A stretch of DNA of 28,795 nucleotides, from the IMG/VR virus record IMGVR_UViG_3300036670_000311, positions 1 to 28,795 of that record; one strand, given 5' to 3'. Under the pieces are notes generated by a model. The model worked only from the letters and a program-made list of their open reading frames with translations. It did not search any database and was not told the DNA's origin. A program made the translations under genes and the position numbers. Positions 1,575 through 27,070 of this stretch are shown here, one piece after another. The DNA comes from a virus. The first letter of the stretch is position 1. Each line of letters begins with the position of its first letter.

Positions 1575-2118
1575 TTATTTCAGCTTCTGCATCGATTATT
1601 TTATTAAAATTCATAACACCAGTATTTGATTGCATACTCATTCTTAATTCAACAATTTTAGGAATCTTAATTTTAATAGGTTTATCAACCAATTTTTCTG
1701 GGTTAAATTTTAATTGATCTTCTACTTTTGCAACATCCCAAGAATCCCCAAGCATTTTAAGTAATTTAACTGCATTATCTGTATCTCCATTCTTTTGGCA
1801 TCTTTCTAACCATTCTTTTACCATTTCTTCATAAATAGCTTTGTTTGCTTTTTTATCAGATTCAATAAGATTACCAAATAATATGTTTGCATTTCTAGTG
1901 TCTCTAAAAAATTGAGCACGCTCTTTTCCTGTTTTCCTTTGATAAATTGCAAAAGATGCTTTTACAGATGGATGCCTGTGCCTTAAAGTCCAAACAACAA
2001 GTAATCGTTCTAGTATTTCATTCTGAACATCATTTAATTCTATTTCAGAATTTAAATAGGATGCATGAATTGTATCTAAATTAGAATCTCCAGTTTTTAT
2101 TTTAGGAACTAAATTCAT
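1558..2118 (-). CDS. putative terminase small subunit
   Basis: This 186-aa soluble, mostly helical protein lies directly upstream of terL, overlapping it by 17 bases, and its own start abuts the stop of the 238-aa gene. Position and size fit the DNA-recognition subunit of the terminase. I do not see a clear helix-turn-helix motif. The N-terminal half is rich in charged helices (for example ERLLVVWTLRHRHPSVKASF) and the C-terminus is acidic, as in TerS proteins that contact TerL. The call is based mainly on context. Alternatively it is another packaging or head accessory protein. Confidence 0.5.
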   Translation of the reverse strand: MNLVPKIKTGDSNLDTIHASYLNSEIELNDVQNEILERLLVVWTLRHRHPSVKASFAIYQRKTGKERAQFFRDTRNANILFGNLIESDKKANKAIYEEMVKEWLERCQKNGDTDNAVKLLKMLGDSWDVAKVEDQLKFNPEKLVDKPIKIKIPKIVELRMSMQSNTGVMNFNKIIDAEAEIIEDEK

Positions 2119-2834
2119 TAATCTTTTTTATTAATTAAAAACGTTAAATCTGCAATATCCTTTTCCAATTGTGCAAACTTTGTCTTTTGCTTTTCAATTG
2201 TTATTTCTTGTTTTGTGGTGGTTTTTATGGTGTTTGGTGTTTGCAATAGCAATACTTCTAAACGCTTTTTTGTTTTGGTTAAAACAGTGCGCTTATTGTT
2301 TCTTCTAAGAATTAATTGTGCAGGAGAAAGTTTTTCAAAATCATTTTCTTTAATTTCTAAAACTGTTTTTGTATCTGTAAAATGATCTAATTGTTTCCAA
2401 GCCAATTCTACAGCATCAAACAAAGCATCAATTTGTAAACAGATTTCTAAGGCTTTTTCTTCATCTTCTGCAGGCAATGCATTTAATTGAATTTTTAAAG
2501 AACAGGCAGTTGCAAAATCATTCTTTTGTTTTATAAAAACAGGATGCAATACAACAGGAAAATCAGAAATTAAAACATTTTTGTATTTTGGTTTTTCTTC
2601 AATTACAGTATCCGGTTTAATAATTGGTTTTTTTACGGATGCAATTAAAGGAGTAAATGAAGTTTCTGAATCTTTGTATTTTGATAATTCATACTTTAAT
2701 TTATCCGCAAAAGCATTCGTTTTTTTACGTTTAAAAAGTTGCAATAAGTTTGGCTTTGCTTCTTTTAAAGTAGCATACATTGCAACGCCTTCTTCGTAGT
2801 TGCAGCCATTATTAAACCAATCGTTTATTTTCAT
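2118..2834 (-). CDS. unrecognised protein upstream of the terminase genes
   Basis: This 238-aa protein has no family I can name. The N-terminal part starts with a W/Y-rich segment (MKINDWFNNGCNYEEGVAMY). The middle is helical and acidic (about 120-160), and the last ~60 residues form a long Lys/Glu/Leu helix that reads as a coiled coil. The stop and the next gene's start share one base (TAATG), so it is translationally coupled to the TerS candidate and then TerL. It is preceded by a terminator and a copy of the putative late promoter motif, so it is probably the first gene of the packaging operon. A role in packaging or head assembly is inference from location only. Confidence 0.6.
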   Translation of the reverse strand: MKINDWFNNGCNYEEGVAMYATLKEAKPNLLQLFKRKKTNAFADKLKYELSKYKDSETSFTPLIASVKKPIIKPDTVIEEKPKYKNVLISDFPVVLHPVFIKQKNDFATACSLKIQLNALPAEDEEKALEICLQIDALFDAVELAWKQLDHFTDTKTVLEIKENDFEKLSPAQLILRRNNKRTVLTKTKKRLEVLLLQTPNTIKTTTKQEITIEKQKTKFAQLEKDIADLTFLINKKD

Positions 2835-2865
2835 AGTGTAAAAATGGCAATTGTTATTCTTTAAA

Positions 2866-2882
2866 TATAGGACACAAAAAAA
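2866..2882 (-). promoter_or_regulatory. putative phage late promoter motif, copy 1
   Basis: On the minus strand this reads TTTTTTTGTGTCCTATA, about 30 bases upstream of the 238-aa gene. It directly follows the terminator hairpin at 2879-2904, so its T-run doubles as the terminator U-tract. It is one of six similar sites, all on the minus strand and all upstream of leftward genes. Promoter function is inferred. Confidence 0.5.
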
Positions 2883-2906
2883 CCACCTCGTAAAAGGTGG
2901 TTTTAA
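2867..2906. repeat. 40-bp direct repeat, left copy
   Basis: These 40 bases are identical to 3403-3442 by eye. The repeat contains the promoter-like motif plus the CCACCTCGTAAAAGGTGG hairpin. The two copies bracket the signal-peptide gene at 2924-3340. Both are also preceded by a shared ATGGCAATTGT (2844-2854 and 3388-3398). Confidence 0.85.
2879..2904 (-). terminator. rho-independent terminator after the 138-aa gene
   Basis: The hairpin has stem AAAACCACC / GGTGGTTTT around a TCGTAAAA loop. On the minus strand it is followed by a run of seven Ts. It lies 20 bases after the stop of the leftward signal-peptide gene. Confidence 0.8.
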
Positions 2907-2923
2907 AGTATGTTAGAAATTTA

Positions 2924-3340
2924 CTACTTATAACTAAACAAATTATTCTGGTATTTCTGTTTTATAGATCTATTATAAAATTGCATCCTGGAACTCGTAT
3001 TTGTAAAGTATTTTTTATTTGAATTGTAACTTTCTAAAGGTGGTTTTAAATTTTTATCAATATAAATACTTAGATAGTTTTTTTGCCAACCAATAGGAAT
3101 ATCAATTTCTAAATTGATAAAATTTAATTGAATCGTTTTTACATCAAAAATAACAGCATGGCTTTTATCTTTTGAATTCGATTTTTTTACAATTGTTTTA
3201 AAAACAAATGCAGTAGTAAAATTTAGATCGGTAGTTTTACTGATTTTTGAAGTATGTTTTTGTAGAACACCTCCTTCGATAGGGTTTGCGTTTATCCCAA
3301 TAAAGGAAAACAGCAACAATACTAAAAGAATTTTTTTCAT
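2924..3340 (-). CDS. small exported protein, moron-like
   Basis: This 138-aa protein begins with a clear signal peptide: MKK, then a hydrophobic core (ILLVLLLFSFIGI), with likely cleavage after the NANP region at about 18-20. The mature part is basic and Asn/Lys/Tyr-rich, with no recognised domain and no cysteine pair. It has its own upstream promoter-like motif and its own downstream terminator, and it sits between two identical 40-bp repeats inside the packaging/head block. That is the arrangement of a moron, an extra gene transcribed independently. A lysogenic-conversion or superinfection role at the cell envelope is possible but not shown by sequence. It could also be a lysis-related protein, as no other lysis gene is obvious. 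Confidence 0.65.
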   Translation of the reverse strand: MKKILLVLLLFSFIGINANPIEGGVLQKHTSKISKTTDLNFTTAFVFKTIVKKSNSKDKSHAVIFDVKTIQLNFINLEIDIPIGWQKNYLSIYIDKNLKPPLESYNSNKKYFTNTSSRMQFYNRSIKQKYQNNLFSYK

Positions 3341-3401
3341 TTTAAAAAGGTTTTAATTAATAATTATTGAAGTACTAAAATAGAAAGATGGCAATTGTAA
3401 A

Positions 3402-3418
3402 AATAGGACACAAAAAAA
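3402..3418 (-). promoter_or_regulatory. putative phage late promoter motif, copy 2
   Basis: The minus strand reads TTTTTTTGTGTCCTATT. It lies about 65 bases upstream of the signal-peptide gene and follows directly on the hairpin at 3415-3440. It shares the terminator-then-motif layout of copy 1. Confidence 0.5.
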
Positions 3419-3442
3419 CCACCTCGTAAAAGGTGGTTTTAA
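3403..3442. repeat. 40-bp direct repeat, right copy
   Basis: This copy is identical to 2867-2906. Recombination between the two would delete or insert the 138-aa gene together with one terminator and one promoter unit, leaving the late block intact. Confidence 0.85.
3415..3440 (-). terminator. rho-independent terminator after the 191-aa gene
   Basis: It has the same stem-loop as at 2879-2904 (ACCACC / GGTGGT with TCGTAAAA loop) and a minus-strand T-run. It closes the transcript running from the protease through the capsid protein to the 191-aa gene, whose stop is 65 bases away. Confidence 0.75.
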
Positions 3443-3504: not shown

Positions 3505-4080
3505 TTATGCTGATGGAACTAAAGTTACTAGTCCTGAATAAACAGGTGCCTCGTATCTGCTTTTATCCGAAACAGTAATTGTTCGTTTATTAAAGCCTTC
3601 ATTTGAAGCTTCTACCATTGCATCCATTTCTGTAAACATAGCACCATGATCTTCTGAACCTATTTGTCTGTAATTACCAGAACCAACTTCTTGCAATAAA
3701 ACAACGCAACGCTTGTTTCTAGACCATCTAGAAAAACCAATTAATTCTGCAGTAGAACCTTCTAAAACAATTGATGCTTTATTTTCTACAATTTTATTAG
3801 TGCTTTCGCCTAAATAAGCAGATTTAATATCTGATGTTTGTTCTGCAACTGTTAACTTAATAAAACCTTTACCCGTTAAAAACGTATGGTCAGTTGTTAT
3901 GCTACCTAATTCGGCAAACGTGGTCCCTTCATTTGCGGGTGTTGCATCATCCAACTTTAAAGGTGCTGCAATTGTTGCAAACCAATCTAAAGGTGCGTAC
4001 AAAACATTTGTATGCACAATGCCCCCAAAATGTTCTTGTTCTGCTTTTCCTAATTTTTCTATTATAATATCCTGTGCCAT
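3505..4080 (-). CDS. putative major tail tube or head-tail structural protein
   Basis: This 191-aa soluble protein has no signal or membrane segment. It is rich in beta-type residues and small side chains, and ends with a region (about 150-191) typical of tail-tube-like or decoration folds (TITVSDKSRYEAPVYSGLVT). It is third after the major capsid protein on the same strand, with only a 69-aa gene between, which is where head-tail joining or major tail proteins often lie. The start follows a short A/T leader 19 bases from the previous stop. I do not recognise a specific family; major tail protein is a best guess and head decoration is the alternative. Confidence 0.45.
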   Translation of the reverse strand: MAQDIIIEKLGKAEQEHFGGIVHTNVLYAPLDWFATIAAPLKLDDATPANEGTTFAELGSITTDHTFLTGKGFIKLTVAEQTSDIKSAYLGESTNKIVENKASIVLEGSTAELIGFSRWSRNKRCVVLLQEVGSGNYRQIGSEDHGAMFTEMDAMVEASNEGFNKRTITVSDKSRYEAPVYSGLVTLVPSA

Positions 4081-5311: not shown

Positions 5312-6619
5312 TTAATTGTTCATTGCTAATGAAATATCAACGCCGCCAACTATGTTGGTTGCACCAATATTTTTATCGTTTGCATTATTTACAATAATTG
5401 TATGTTTTGAACCATCTAACTGGCCATACTCTACAACTTTTTTTGCTAAAGCAGTAATTGCATCTGCTCCGTTTAATTCTTCGGTAATATCTGCAGTTGT
5501 TAATGCTGCAGTAATTGATGCAGAAATTGCAGTTTCTTTTTCTGATGCAATTCTTACAGTTTCTTGAAAATCTGTAATTGTAGCATTTAAAGGTTTTGTT
5601 GCTGCTTCGATTGATGCAGGAATTCCAGAAATTTTATTTTCTAAAGTTTCCATTTGTTCTTCGGATAAAAAGAAACCTGCATCATTGTTGCTTTCAAATG
5701 CAACTTCTAATCCAAGTGTTTCTTGAATTGAACTATAATTTTTACTCATGGTTTGCGAATTTGTATTTGTATTTGCTTTTGAGATTTCAAAAACTTTATC
5801 TATTGCATTTTGTAGTGTGCCTATCTGGTCAATTAATCCTTCTTTAAGTGATTGCTTCGGATTAAAAATATCTCCCTTTAAAGCCTTCTCTGTAATGTTT
5901 GGCCTTGCACTTTTAACAGCTTCATGAAATTGAGAAGCCATAGGATTCAAATATTCTTTAATTAAAACAGAAGTATCTCCTGCAGCTAAAGATCTTGAAA
6001 GTTTGTTTTTATCTGGAGATAGATCAGAATATTCTTCTATTACTTCAACGCCTTGTTTTTTAAGTGCGCCTTGAATGTCTATTTTTGAAAACATGGTACC
6101 AATAGAACCAATAAAATCTGCATGCTTATGTGCAATAATAAAATCGGATGCAGAAGCCATATAATATGCTGCAGAACCTATCATGTCTTTTGTAAAAGAA
6201 ACAACTGGTTTGCTGTAGTCTTTTATAAAGTCGAAAAATTCTGCATTACCAGAAGCTTGACCACCTCCAGAATTAAAATCTAAAACAACCCCTTTAATAT
6301 TTGGGTTTGCTTCAAATTCTCTTAAAGTTTGCATTATTGATTGCGTTCCTTTTGGCCCACAGGTTTGATCGTATTTAAATATTGGATGATGAATATTTAC
6401 AATTGCAACAGAATTCTGTTGAATAGATAAACCTTCTGAATTTTCTAAAGATTGAAAATTACCAGAAGCATCTGCAAATAAAAATTTTGTTGGTTCTAAA
6501 GAATCAGAAGAAATATTCTGACCTTTTAATATAGAAAGTAAAAAAGGCATCAAAGCAGCTTTACTACTTTGATTAATCATCCAATTACTACTTAATAAAG
6601 AAAACGTGTTTTTATTCAT
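5312..6619 (-). CDS. prohead protease (peptidase S49) with C-terminal scaffold-like region
   Basis: This 435-aa protein is a head-maturation protease of the SppA/lambda C type. The N-terminal ~270 residues carry the S49 core: a beta strand and turn (GVVLDFNSGGGQASG, 110-124), the nucleophile serine in DMIGSAAYYMAS (S149), the IGSIGTMF segment (171-177), and a lysine pair near YSDLSPDKNK (K204/K206), one of which is the likely general base. The remainder (about 285-435) is helical, Ala/Thr/Glu-rich and lacks cysteines, like a scaffold. An internal ATG at residue 291 (base 5749) could give a separate ~145-aa scaffold, as lambda Nu3 arises within C. It is followed after 26 bases by the capsid gene and preceded by a promoter-like motif at 6674-6691. 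Confidence 0.88.
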   Translation of the reverse strand: MNKNTFSLLSSNWMINQSSKAALMPFLLSILKGQNISSDSLEPTKFLFADASGNFQSLENSEGLSIQQNSVAIVNIHHPIFKYDQTCGPKGTQSIMQTLREFEANPNIKGVVLDFNSGGGQASGNAEFFDFIKDYSKPVVSFTKDMIGSAAYYMASASDFIIAHKHADFIGSIGTMFSKIDIQGALKKQGVEVIEEYSDLSPDKNKLSRSLAAGDTSVLIKEYLNPMASQFHEAVKSARPNITEKALKGDIFNPKQSLKEGLIDQIGTLQNAIDKVFEISKANTNTNSQTMSKNYSSIQETLGLEVAFESNNDAGFFLSEEQMETLENKISGIPASIEAATKPLNATITDFQETVRIASEKETAISASITAALTTADITEELNGADAITALAKKVVEYGQLDGSKHTIIVNNANDKNIGATNIVGGVDISLAMNN

Positions 6620-6673
6620 TTGTAAAATGCCTTTTCTAGCACATTACAAACATCATAAAAAATCAATCTAAAA

Positions 6674-6691
6674 TATAGGACACAAAAAAAA
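6674..6691 (-). promoter_or_regulatory. putative phage late promoter motif, copy 3
   Basis: The minus strand reads TTTTTTTTGTGTCCTATA, about 55 bases upstream of the prohead protease gene. No hairpin precedes it here, so the conserved T-run is not simply a terminator tail. This is the main argument that the motif itself has a role. Confidence 0.5.
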
Positions 6692-7262: not shown

Positions 7263-7751
7263 CTAACTTTCTAAAAGCTGTCCTAAACTGCTTTTATCTC
7301 TGTGATAATTTCTGTATAAATTTTCTAGCTTTAGTTCATCTTCTGTAACATCATAGCATTTTAAGAATTGCTTCATGGCCTTCATTACATCCTGCTTTAA
7401 AATAGAATTTTCGCTCTTAACTACTAAATTGCTATGCATAGAGGTTGTTATATAATCATCCATTGATGATAAAAAAAGCTTCTGGAGAAACATTTCAAAT
7501 TTTTTCATTTTTGCAGAACTCATATCAAAGCCTTGTCTTTCAATAATTGTTTTAGGAAAATGAAAAGGGTAAAAATTTTTCTCCTTTAAATTTTTGTGCT
7601 CTTTTCTATATTGTTTGTCAAGTAGATCTGTTAAATAAATACCTAAAGAAGAATTGATGCTAACTTTATGATGATTGCCATACTTCTTTTCTAAAAATTT
7701 ACATAAGTAACTCTTTAAAGGCATATTAATGATTATTGTTCCTGTATCCAT
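7263..7751 (-). CDS. unrecognised conserved-looking phage protein
   Basis: This 162-aa basic, soluble protein has the N-terminal pattern of a short beta strand followed by LKSYLCKFLEKKYG, and ends with a segment rich in aromatic and charged residues (DELKLENLYRNYHRDKSS). I recall similar proteins in Bacteroidota prophages, but no function. It is the second gene leftward from the repeat region at 8111-8390 and lies 44 bases from the stop of the 80-aa gene. Its position between the candidate origin and the head genes could suit a regulator of late transcription, which is only a guess. No helix-turn-helix is clear. Confidence 0.6.
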   Translation of the reverse strand: MDTGTIIINMPLKSYLCKFLEKKYGNHHKVSINSSLGIYLTDLLDKQYRKEHKNLKEKNFYPFHFPKTIIERQGFDMSSAKMKKFEMFLQKLFLSSMDDYITTSMHSNLVVKSENSILKQDVMKAMKQFLKCYDVTEDELKLENLYRNYHRDKSSLGQLLES

Positions 7752-8038: not shown

Positions 8039-8092
8039 GATAAAATATTTAAAATTTGATAAAACAAACATACAATGGTCCATTTTAAGAAA

Positions 8093-8105
8093 ATAGGACA
8101 AAAAA
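8093..8105 (-). promoter_or_regulatory. putative phage late promoter motif, copy 5
   Basis: The minus strand reads TTTTTTTGTCCTATT, about 55 bases upstream of the 80-aa gene's ATG. A downstream TATGTTTG on the same strand matches the Bacteroidota -7 box TAnnTTTG, so the region could hold two overlapping promoter signals. The site lies at the very edge of the repeat array that starts at 8111. Confidence 0.45.
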
Positions 8106-8110
8106 ATGCG

Positions 8111-8390
8111 TGTTGGAACCTTGGAACCCTAATTTTAAGTAAAAAAGGTTCAAGGTTCCAACATTTAGTTTAACTATTTGATTATTAGAACTGTAATTTC
8201 TTGAACCCTCTAAAAAACTGTTGGAACTTCTTGAACCAACCCCCAGAATGTTGGAACGCTATTTTTGTGGTTCAAGAAGTTCCAACAAAATAAGTAGTAT
8301 ATTATATAGATTAAATAAAGATAAGTGTTTAGTAATTAGATATATACTATAAAGAATATCTATAATGTTGGAACCATTGAACTCTTGAAC
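8111..8390. repeat. GTTGGAAC / TTGAACC repeat array with AT-rich tract (candidate origin)
   Basis: At least seven related sites occur in 280 bases. They are GTTGGAACCTTGGAACC (8111-8127), GGTTCAAGGTTCCAAC (8146-8161), TTCTTGAACC (8197-8206), GTTGGAACTTCTTGAACC (8219-8236), GTTGGAAC (8249-8256), GGTTCAAGAAGTTCCAAC (8268-8285) and GTTGGAAC…TTGAACC (8366-8390). The first two form an imperfect inverted pair, and 8219-8236 with 8268-8285 a perfect 18-bp one. Between 8286 and 8365 the DNA is almost pure A/T. Iteron-like sites plus an AT-rich tract directly downstream of the replication operon suggest a replication origin. An operator cluster for a phage regulator is the alternative. The whole gap 8106-8538 has no credible gene. 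Confidence 0.6.
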
Positions 8391-8781: not shown

Positions 8782-8796
8782 TTTTTTGAATTTGTA

Positions 8797-8815
8797 TTAT
8801 AAGGTGTTGGCAGTA
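8797..8815. repeat. 19-bp inverted repeat bounding the cassette-like module (left end)
   Basis: TTATAAGGTGTTGGCAGTA here is the exact reverse complement of 10115-10133. It also shares GTTGGCAGTA with 9827-9836. It stands as a half-element: no matching left arm is visible further left. Confidence 0.8.
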
Positions 8816-8823
8816 ATTTGAAA

Positions 8824-9689: not shown

Positions 9690-9698
9690 AATAAAAAC

Positions 9699-9836
9699 TA
9701 CTGCCAACACCGTATATAATTTATTGCTTGCTTCTCGCCTACTTACGAAAATCCTCGCGGATTTTCTATTCAGTTTTTATTTACTAAATTAGTTGTTTAA
9801 CCACGCAACAAACCATATACAACAACGTTGGCAGTA
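9699..9836. repeat. attC-like palindromic element between the two cassette genes
   Basis: This 138-base imperfect palindrome has ends TACTGCCAAC (9699-9708) and GTTGGCAGTA (9827-9836). The next inner blocks also pair: GTATAT with ATATAC and TTTATTGCTTG with its near-complement, with a few extra bases on the right arm (ACC versus AACAAC). The centre is a hairpin GAAAATCC-TCGC-GGATTTTC (9747-9766). Long folded arms with unpaired extra bases, placed between short genes, recall integron attC sites. However, the conserved ends are GCCAAC/GTTGGC, not the canonical RYYYAAC/GTTRRRY. I recall similar elements scattered in other Bacteroidota genomes but cannot check this. Confidence 0.6.
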
Positions 9837-10084: not shown

Positions 10085-10114
10085 ATAAATTCAATTTAAT
10101 AATTAATAATTAAC

Positions 10115-10250
10115 TACTGCCAACACCTTATAAAATTAATAGCTAGGCAGTGTTTAACTATTAATTATGTTCTTATTTATTTGCTTATCGCTTAACTATT
10201 GGTAAGTGCTTATTTATACGCTACAAATCTTATAAATGAAACGTTGGCAA
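10115..10250. repeat. attC-like palindromic element, right end of the module
   Basis: The left arm is TACTGCCAACACCTTATAA (10115-10133), which pairs with TTATAAATGAAACGTTGGC on the right arm (GTTGGC starts at 10243). Inner blocks ATTAATAGC and GCTACAAAT also pair. As in the 9699-9836 element, the right arm carries extra unpaired bases between GTTGGC and the next stem. The region 10085-10268 holds no gene. Confidence 0.6.
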
Positions 10251-25096: not shown

Positions 25097-25582
25097 TTAA
25101 GTAATATTTACACCGTTTTTTTTAAACATAATTTTCACTTCTTGCATTCTTAAAGCTCCTAATTCATTAAAAATAATATCAAAACCACCTGATTTTTCGA
25201 TTCCATCTTCTATAAATGCGATTGCGGTTAATTTAAAAGGGTGTGCAGATACGTTTGTAAAAGGACTTTTATTTCTACCTCCTGCTTCTCTTTCATTTCG
25301 CCATCTTCCTTTTGCACGAATATGACCTGACCTATTTGTATTAACACCGTGTTGTATTATAAACCCATGACGTGCCATAGTTGTCTGAATTTTAAAAAGA
25401 CGAACCTTACCCATTTTTGGTGTGGTTTTTACGGAATCTAACAAAGAGAGTTCATCACCTTGCTTTACGTTACCAGAAAATAAATTGTGTTTTCTTATTT
25501 CTTGTTGGATGCTTTTTTGTATCATCCTAGAAGCTTTTAAACCTATTCTTCTTTCTGTTTTTAGTATTTCATCTAAAGTCAT
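25097..25582 (-). CDS. HK97 gp10-like tail completion protein
   Basis: This 161-aa basic protein lies immediately upstream of the tape measure. Its central section ARHGFIIQHGVNTNRSGHIRA, then SAHPFKLTAIAFIEDGIEKSG near the C-terminus, resembles the gp10/head-tail joining and tail-terminator group. It is preceded by a late-motif copy at 25625-25641, so the tail operon restarts here after the accessory insert. Confidence 0.6.
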   Translation of the reverse strand: MTLDEILKTERRIGLKASRMIQKSIQQEIRKHNLFSGNVKQGDELSLLDSVKTTPKMGKVRLFKIQTTMARHGFIIQHGVNTNRSGHIRAKGRWRNEREAGGRNKSPFTNVSAHPFKLTAIAFIEDGIEKSGGFDIIFNELGALRMQEVKIMFKKNGVNIT

Positions 25583-25624
25583 CTTTTAAATTTTGATGCA
25601 ATTTAAGTTTGCTTTCTATGAAAT

Positions 25625-25641
25625 TATAGGACACAAAAAAA
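25625..25641 (-). promoter_or_regulatory. putative phage late promoter motif, copy 6
   Basis: The minus strand reads TTTTTTTGTGTCCTATA, about 45 bases upstream of the gp10-like gene and directly after the hairpin at 25639-25664. It is the only copy outside the head block. Confidence 0.5.
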
Positions 25642-25664
25642 CCACTCATTTTTTTGAGTGGTTT
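25639..25664 (-). terminator. rho-independent terminator before the tail operon
   Basis: The stem AAACCACTCA / TGAGTGGTTT surrounds a T-rich loop, with a T-run on the minus strand. It lies after the 69-aa gene of the accessory insert. The stem differs in sequence from the CCACCTCGT hairpins but shares the terminator-then-motif design. Confidence 0.8.
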
Positions 25665-25688
25665 TTAAAAAGTTAACTTATAAGTTAA

Positions 25689-27050: not shown

Positions 27051-27070
27051 ACCACCTCGTAAAAGGTGGT
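27051..27070 (-). terminator. leftward terminator, third CCACCTCGT hairpin
   Basis: ACCACC-TCGTAAAA-GGTGGT is the same stem-loop as at 2879-2904 and 3415-3440. It sits 35 bases after the 189-aa tail gene and closes that transcript before the accessory insert. No GTCCTAT motif follows here. The shared sequence suggests the hairpin travels with inserted units. Confidence 0.7.

Follow-up and report, generated by a model that had tools for sequence, protein, structure and literature searches.

The locus analysed here raises the question of how a short gene with an apparent signal peptide came to lie between two perfect repeats among the late genes of a virus, and what these repeats might do for its expression. 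The window, i.e., the whole stretch of DNA under study, is a virus record of 28,795 bases whose late genes lie on the minus strand. Our main reading, to which we assign a probability of roughly 0.75, is that the feature is a cargo cassette occupying a permissive slot within the late region in a lineage of temperate flavobacterial siphophages, equipped with units that would stop and restart transcription.

The first-pass annotation described a signal-peptide gene at 2924-3340 flanked by identical 40-bp repeats, and its coordinates as well as the repeat identity (100%; 536 nt from start to start) are borne out by the sequence; the layout stands for the repeats and the gene but had to be corrected for the strand, since all the elements lie on the minus strand (Table 1). 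Read on that strand, each block (TTAAAACCACCTTTTACGAGGTGGTTTTTTTGTGTCCTAT) consists of an 11-bp terminator hairpin with a 4-base loop, a T run, and then the TGTCCTAT motif. Both hairpins fold at -13.7 kcal/mol (z -4.4 and -4.8), the 20-nt hairpin is found three times in the window against 0 expected, and the TATAGGACACAAAAAAA motif, allowing up to three mismatches, six times against 0.72 expected. A sigma-70 scan of the window yielded no excess (41 found, 49.6 expected), and the exact window unit had no match among the viral contigs searched. The hairpin, which is predicted to terminate transcription, and the late-type motif attributed to each repeat are real and conserved in relatives. Calling the repeat a promoter-terminator was thus right as to the terminator and the motif, but the promoter outruns the 40 bp and has its -7 box outside. 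When 1323 within-genome pairs of promoter sites from the relatives were compared, no pair other than that of the window had at least 30 identical bases 5' of the motif, and therefore a chance origin of the repeat is excluded.

Table 1. Features of the cargo slot and related promoter sites in the window.
Feature	Position	Strand	Remarks
238-aa conserved gene, 3' of slot	2118..2834	-	Heads 238-186-terminase operon; homologues found
Putative -7 box CATTTTTA of 238-aa gene promoter	2839..2846	-	Start codon 4 nt on
Downstream 40-bp copy	2867..2906	-	Putative cargo-gene terminator 2879-2904, T run, TGTCCTAT of next promoter 2867-2874
Cargo ("moron") gene, 138 aa, plausible N-terminal signal peptide	2924..3340	-	ORF; mature part without relatives in the collections searched
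Putative -7 box TATTTTAG of cargo promoter	3375..3382	-	Standard offset from TGTCC, imperfect; placed by the spacing rule
Upstream 40-bp copy	3403..3442	-	Hairpin 3415-3440, T run, TGTCCTAT 3403-3410
191-aa conserved gene, 5' of slot	3505..4080	-	Profile matches in relatives
TGTCCTAT ... GATGTTTG, same promoter class	6647..6682	-	5' of head-maturation protease operon 5312-6619
TGTCCTAT ... TATGTTTG, same promoter class	8065..8100	-	5' of 101-aa/162-aa/157-aa genes
Terminator-promoter unit with another hairpin (ACCACTC..GAGTGGT)	25616..25665	-	Motif at 25633; 5' of 161-aa gene 25097-25582
Third identical hairpin copy ACCACCTTTTACGAGGTGGT	27051..27070	-	Without TGTCC motif

The motif belongs to a promoter class that is defined by its spacing. 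Of the 139 sites of related phages preceded by a T run, 56 have a spacing of exactly 32 nt from the first base of TGTCC to that of TTTG, against about 1 typically and at most 5 at any other offset, counts that are not independent because the loci share ancestry. A perfect hairpin stands 5' of the motif at 78 of these 139 sites, compared with 1.6% in shuffled sequences. The TGTCC sites lacking a T run also keep TTTG at +32 (65/441; background 4.4), and thus promoter and terminator can occur apart, although the two are frequently joined. Bacteroidota promoters have a -7 element TAnnTTTG, and the second element of the promoter, an AnnTTTG box, fits it. Upstream of the 238-aa gene the distance from TTTG to ATG is 4 nt in 38 of 44 loci and 3 nt in four, so that a leaderless mRNA is predicted for this gene. 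Since the same promoter is found 5' of the protease-capsid operon, whose protease was identified by domain and family searches, it is probably a late promoter, and we expect it to be active. When 2.9 million viral contigs of IMG/VR were scanned blindly for the unit plus its spacing, 60 stretches were recovered, 43 of them in this phage group (39 new loci and 4 already in the locus set); the terminator-promoter geometry is nearly restricted to this group. In host genomes TTTTTNTGTCCTAT occurs in 2-6 copies, which in the Polaribacter genomes carrying loci L073 and L074 are mostly on the prophage contig. No earlier description of this promoter was found in the literature searched, which is weak evidence of novelty as subscription papers lie mostly outside it.

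To compare the slot among relatives, an alignment of TerL from the window, an IMG/VR contig and the Polaribacter phage Leef_1 served as the starting set and led to 88 loci, including prophages of Polaribacter, Tenacibaculum, Arenibacter, and other Flavobacteriia. In about 50 of these loci, profiles of the flanking genes located the interval that separates the 191-aa gene from the 238-aa gene, and its length varies between 96 nt and about 7 kb. The first-pass annotation had predicted relatives with a single repeat and no gene at this site, and this is what was seen in six non-redundant loci (L005, L007, L008, L012, L075, and L077), where the interval is 96-113 nt and contains one hairpin-TGTCC unit. 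The presence of the gene in all relatives, which would have spoken against the proposal, was therefore not observed. Moreover, L005 is the sister of the window on the TerL tree (SH-aLRT 100; TerL 69% identical), and at least six changes between empty and occupied states are needed on that tree. L073, L074, L068, L089, and L153 resemble the window in having a signal-peptide gene with a unit on either side, and other relatives hold from one to many genes in the slot. In the prophages L006 and L007, which are about 83% identical outside the slot, the L006 slot measures about 770 nt and contains genes on the reverse strand, one of them a small HTH-like ORF; its TGTCC motif no longer has a terminator hairpin immediately 5' of it.

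A Pfam scan of the slot genes detected D12 and C5 DNA methylases, a Tad2-like protein, an amidase, and other domains, and L074 has an N6/N4 methylase in the slot that follows, which separates its 238-aa gene from the 186-aa gene. Signal peptides, called by a crude rule, are enriched in slot genes (20/114 versus 59/958; p 9e-5). The slot gene L089:5801-6295 of an Arenibacter prophage appears to join a signal peptide to a Tad2-like domain (PF11195, E 2.6e-15) with PDB matches to SptTad2 and AcrIIA7; as Tad2 works in the cytoplasm, an exported form would be odd, and the gene also has an ATG further inside, close to where Tad2 usually starts. Exported cargo proteins of one further family (L073:6501-7022, L074:5429-6115, L077:20861-21388, and L039:4087-4662) have in common a C-terminal part ending in YY; they are encoded in the slot and elsewhere, and they match no Pfam family with confidence.

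The protein of the window itself begins with MKKILLVLLLFSFIGINA, plausibly a signal peptide, and is presumably exported. Its mature part had no relative among viral contigs, genome contigs, phages, Pfam, PHROGs, NCBIfam, PADLOC, and PDB, and in 116 genomes of the Polaribacter-type genus the protein had none beyond the N-terminal module of L073 and L074. The structure prediction was unusable (pLDDT 35.5). An iterated profile search proposed five homologues, which would place the protein in the YY-ending family, but at the level of residues only the signal-peptide region supports this membership, and thus the protein has not been placed there. By analogy with the DNA methylases and the Tad2-like gene of neighbouring cargo, our guess is a role in counter-defence or in superinfection exclusion in the envelope, a guess drawn from the neighbourhood only, as the protein has neither a relative nor a confident model.

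The distribution of units follows that of the inserted genes. The cargo-free junctions protease-MCP, MCP-69aa, 69aa-191aa, and 186aa-TerL did not show a promoter in any of 205 cases, and 44 of 53 loci have one promoter unit 5' of the 238-aa gene. At the junction of the 238-aa gene with the 186-aa gene, where the two normally overlap, a promoter is found in 7 of the 15 loci with a gap above 250 nt versus 1 of the 42 tight ones (p 0.0002). In L074 an exact late-promoter repeat of 50 bp (L074:6159 and L074:9320) lies 5' of the 238-aa and 186-aa genes and brackets the 238-aa gene and the DNA methylase. These junction counts suggest that inserted genes tend to bring a unit with them, as would be needed to insulate the structural operon.

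We propose that the ancestral slot held one composite unit, whose intrinsic terminator would end the protease-capsid transcript and whose late promoter, fused at the T run (TGTCCTAT, 32 nt, TTTG, 4 nt, ATG), would restart transcription of the 238-186-terminase genes. In the window, an exported-protein gene would occupy the slot together with its own, second unit: the capsid transcript would stop and the cargo gene start at the upstream unit, the cargo transcript would stop and the structural genes restart at the downstream unit, and the neighbours would therefore be insulated from the insert. The fusion of hairpin and motif at many sites could also mean that the hairpin and T run form an attenuator or leader of one continuous late transcript, with TGTCCTAT being an RNA signal and no promoter at all; this is very improbable, given that the motif keeps its 32-nt spacing in the absence of a T run and that the downstream box, 4 nt from the start codon, fits the Bacteroidota -7 consensus. 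A classical moron of lysogenic conversion, whose own promoter is active in the repressed prophage and whose product changes the host surface, e.g., for superinfection exclusion, would agree with a lone signal-peptide gene lying between promoter and terminator where the flanking genes are adjacent in relatives, with a cargo promoter that differs in detail from that of its neighbour, and with the GC content of the gene (24.7%), the minimum in a comparison of 15 genes (24.7-35.6), albeit in a short gene and not far off the others. Expression from the repressed prophage is a trait of many, not all, morons. However, the cargo promoter has the same TGTCC element as the protease gene and the 238-aa gene, both of which are expected to be silent in the lysogen, and we regard this alternative as distinctly unlikely. 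From the "moron" reading of the first-pass annotation we retain the insertion between adjacent genes and, on sequence grounds, the gene's own promoter and terminator, but not its autonomous expression: because the promoter is of the class of the protease-capsid operon, the cargo gene is most likely expressed late and under phage control.

The origin of the perfect repeat is a separate matter from that of the cassette. From the T run onwards, the cargo promoter, leader, and signal peptide of the window align with those of the two Polaribacter prophages L073 and L074 (z 24 and 23, the value for L073 being that of the leader and first codons), whereas the gene bodies do not (z 0.9 and -0.6). Compared with L073, the window cargo promoter lacks 8 nt between TGTCCTAT and ACAATTGCC, and its old -7 box is damaged (CATCTTTC); the replacement box TATTTTAG at the right offset could be due to chance. 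The idea that the cargo promoter is a deleted copy of the window's 238-aa gene promoter was dropped, given this alignment to the L073 cargo promoter and leader. Identical flanking repeats, which had been taken as the arrangement of the unit, are not general, as L073, L074, L068, and L153 each have two units with unlike hairpins. The identical repeats might be the scar of an insertion, the gene having entered by homologous recombination at a single unit or with its duplication, in a reversible manner. The uniqueness of the 40-bp identity favours such a scar, and so do the 50-bp promoter repeat around the 238-aa gene and cargo in L074, a 29-bp repeat in L056, and the nearly alike hairpins of the two units of L089. 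Nevertheless, a crossover at the unit would leave the donor's hairpin on one side, and the 5' module is common to L073 and L074, whose hairpins differ, so that the cassette is older than the 40-bp identity. Thus, we find a scar somewhat unlikely, and the perfect repeat is better read as a later homogenisation by recombination within the genome between the two units, which would be the simplest account. Loss of the gene by recombination between the repeats is plausible and, if it happens, would restore a site like that of L005. More ambitiously, the unit may be a dedicated shuffling element with a new class of late promoter and a phage-encoded TGTCCTAT activator, by which exported and counter-defence genes, as well as chimeras of one promoter-leader-signal-peptide module with different mature domains, could be swapped harmlessly within the structural operon; we consider this possible, at somewhat less than even odds. 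A candidate for the late activator is the 162-aa gene (7263-7751), which lies upstream of the late region and was found in 43 loci; its model has a pLDDT of 86 and its structural matches are weak (best Z 4.1).

Repeated short sequences 5' of several genes, with an extended form containing an inverted repeat, are reportedly known as SAS and ESAS in Cluster K mycobacteriophages, and are said to be tied to translation starts rather than to terminator-promoter fusions. In T4-like phages, composite promoter-terminator cassettes have been described as PeSLs (promoter early stem-loops) (Arbiol 2010; Comeau 2014; via PMC4503421). In these, a stem-loop and a promoter form one unit that recurs between genes in a variable region, and a role in the shuffling of cargo genes has been proposed for them. 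The window unit, as far as can be told from its sequence, is likewise a terminator stem-loop fused to a promoter and recurs in a plastic region. However, this promoter is not the early sigma-70-type promoter of a T4-like myovirus but the phage's own, probably late class (TGTCC, Bacteroidota -7 box) that also precedes the protease and capsid genes, and the phage group is one of temperate siphophages with slots within the structural operon. Since promoter class and phage type differ, the window unit is not a member of the PeSLs. A moron in the sense of Juhala and Hendrix is a lone gene with promoter and terminator between genes adjacent in relatives (PMC4378225; PMC7067206). Here, the gene is absent from L005 and the five other relatives with adjacent flanking genes, and a promoter and terminator of its own are predicted, but the promoter class is common to the late genes and the downstream unit would also serve the next structural gene. 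The Polaribacter phage Leef_1 (Helgolandviridae), reported as a siphovirus (PMC8776804), has the same gene order and one hairpin-TGTCC unit 5' of gp46, the 238-aa homologue; it differs in the 98-aa gp45 that follows the 191-aa homologue, which is unrelated to the 138-aa gene and has no unit upstream.

This type of cargo slot is therefore already known from T4-type phages, and what is new here is the different, probably late promoter, suggesting that temperate siphophages with late promoters have their own version of the PeSL-type solution, in which stop-start units bound the cargo. With the rule of hairpin, T run, TGTCCTAT, 32 nt, TTTG, 4 nt, and ATG, late operons and cargo slots can be predicted across a large phage group of marine Flavobacteriia. 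The DNA methylases and the Tad2-like gene gathered in the slot make the orphan genes found there promising candidates for novel factors of counter-defence or exclusion.

Two further elements were observed in the window. A perfect inverted repeat of 20 nt (TGTTGGAACTTCTTGAACCA), its arms separated by 29 nt, lies at 8219-8287 with related copies of the GTTCCAAC motif nearby, and in a mostly intergenic stretch the AACTACTGCCAACACC element is present at 9696-9728, 10112-10144, and 8790-8818, as two direct copies and one inverted copy.
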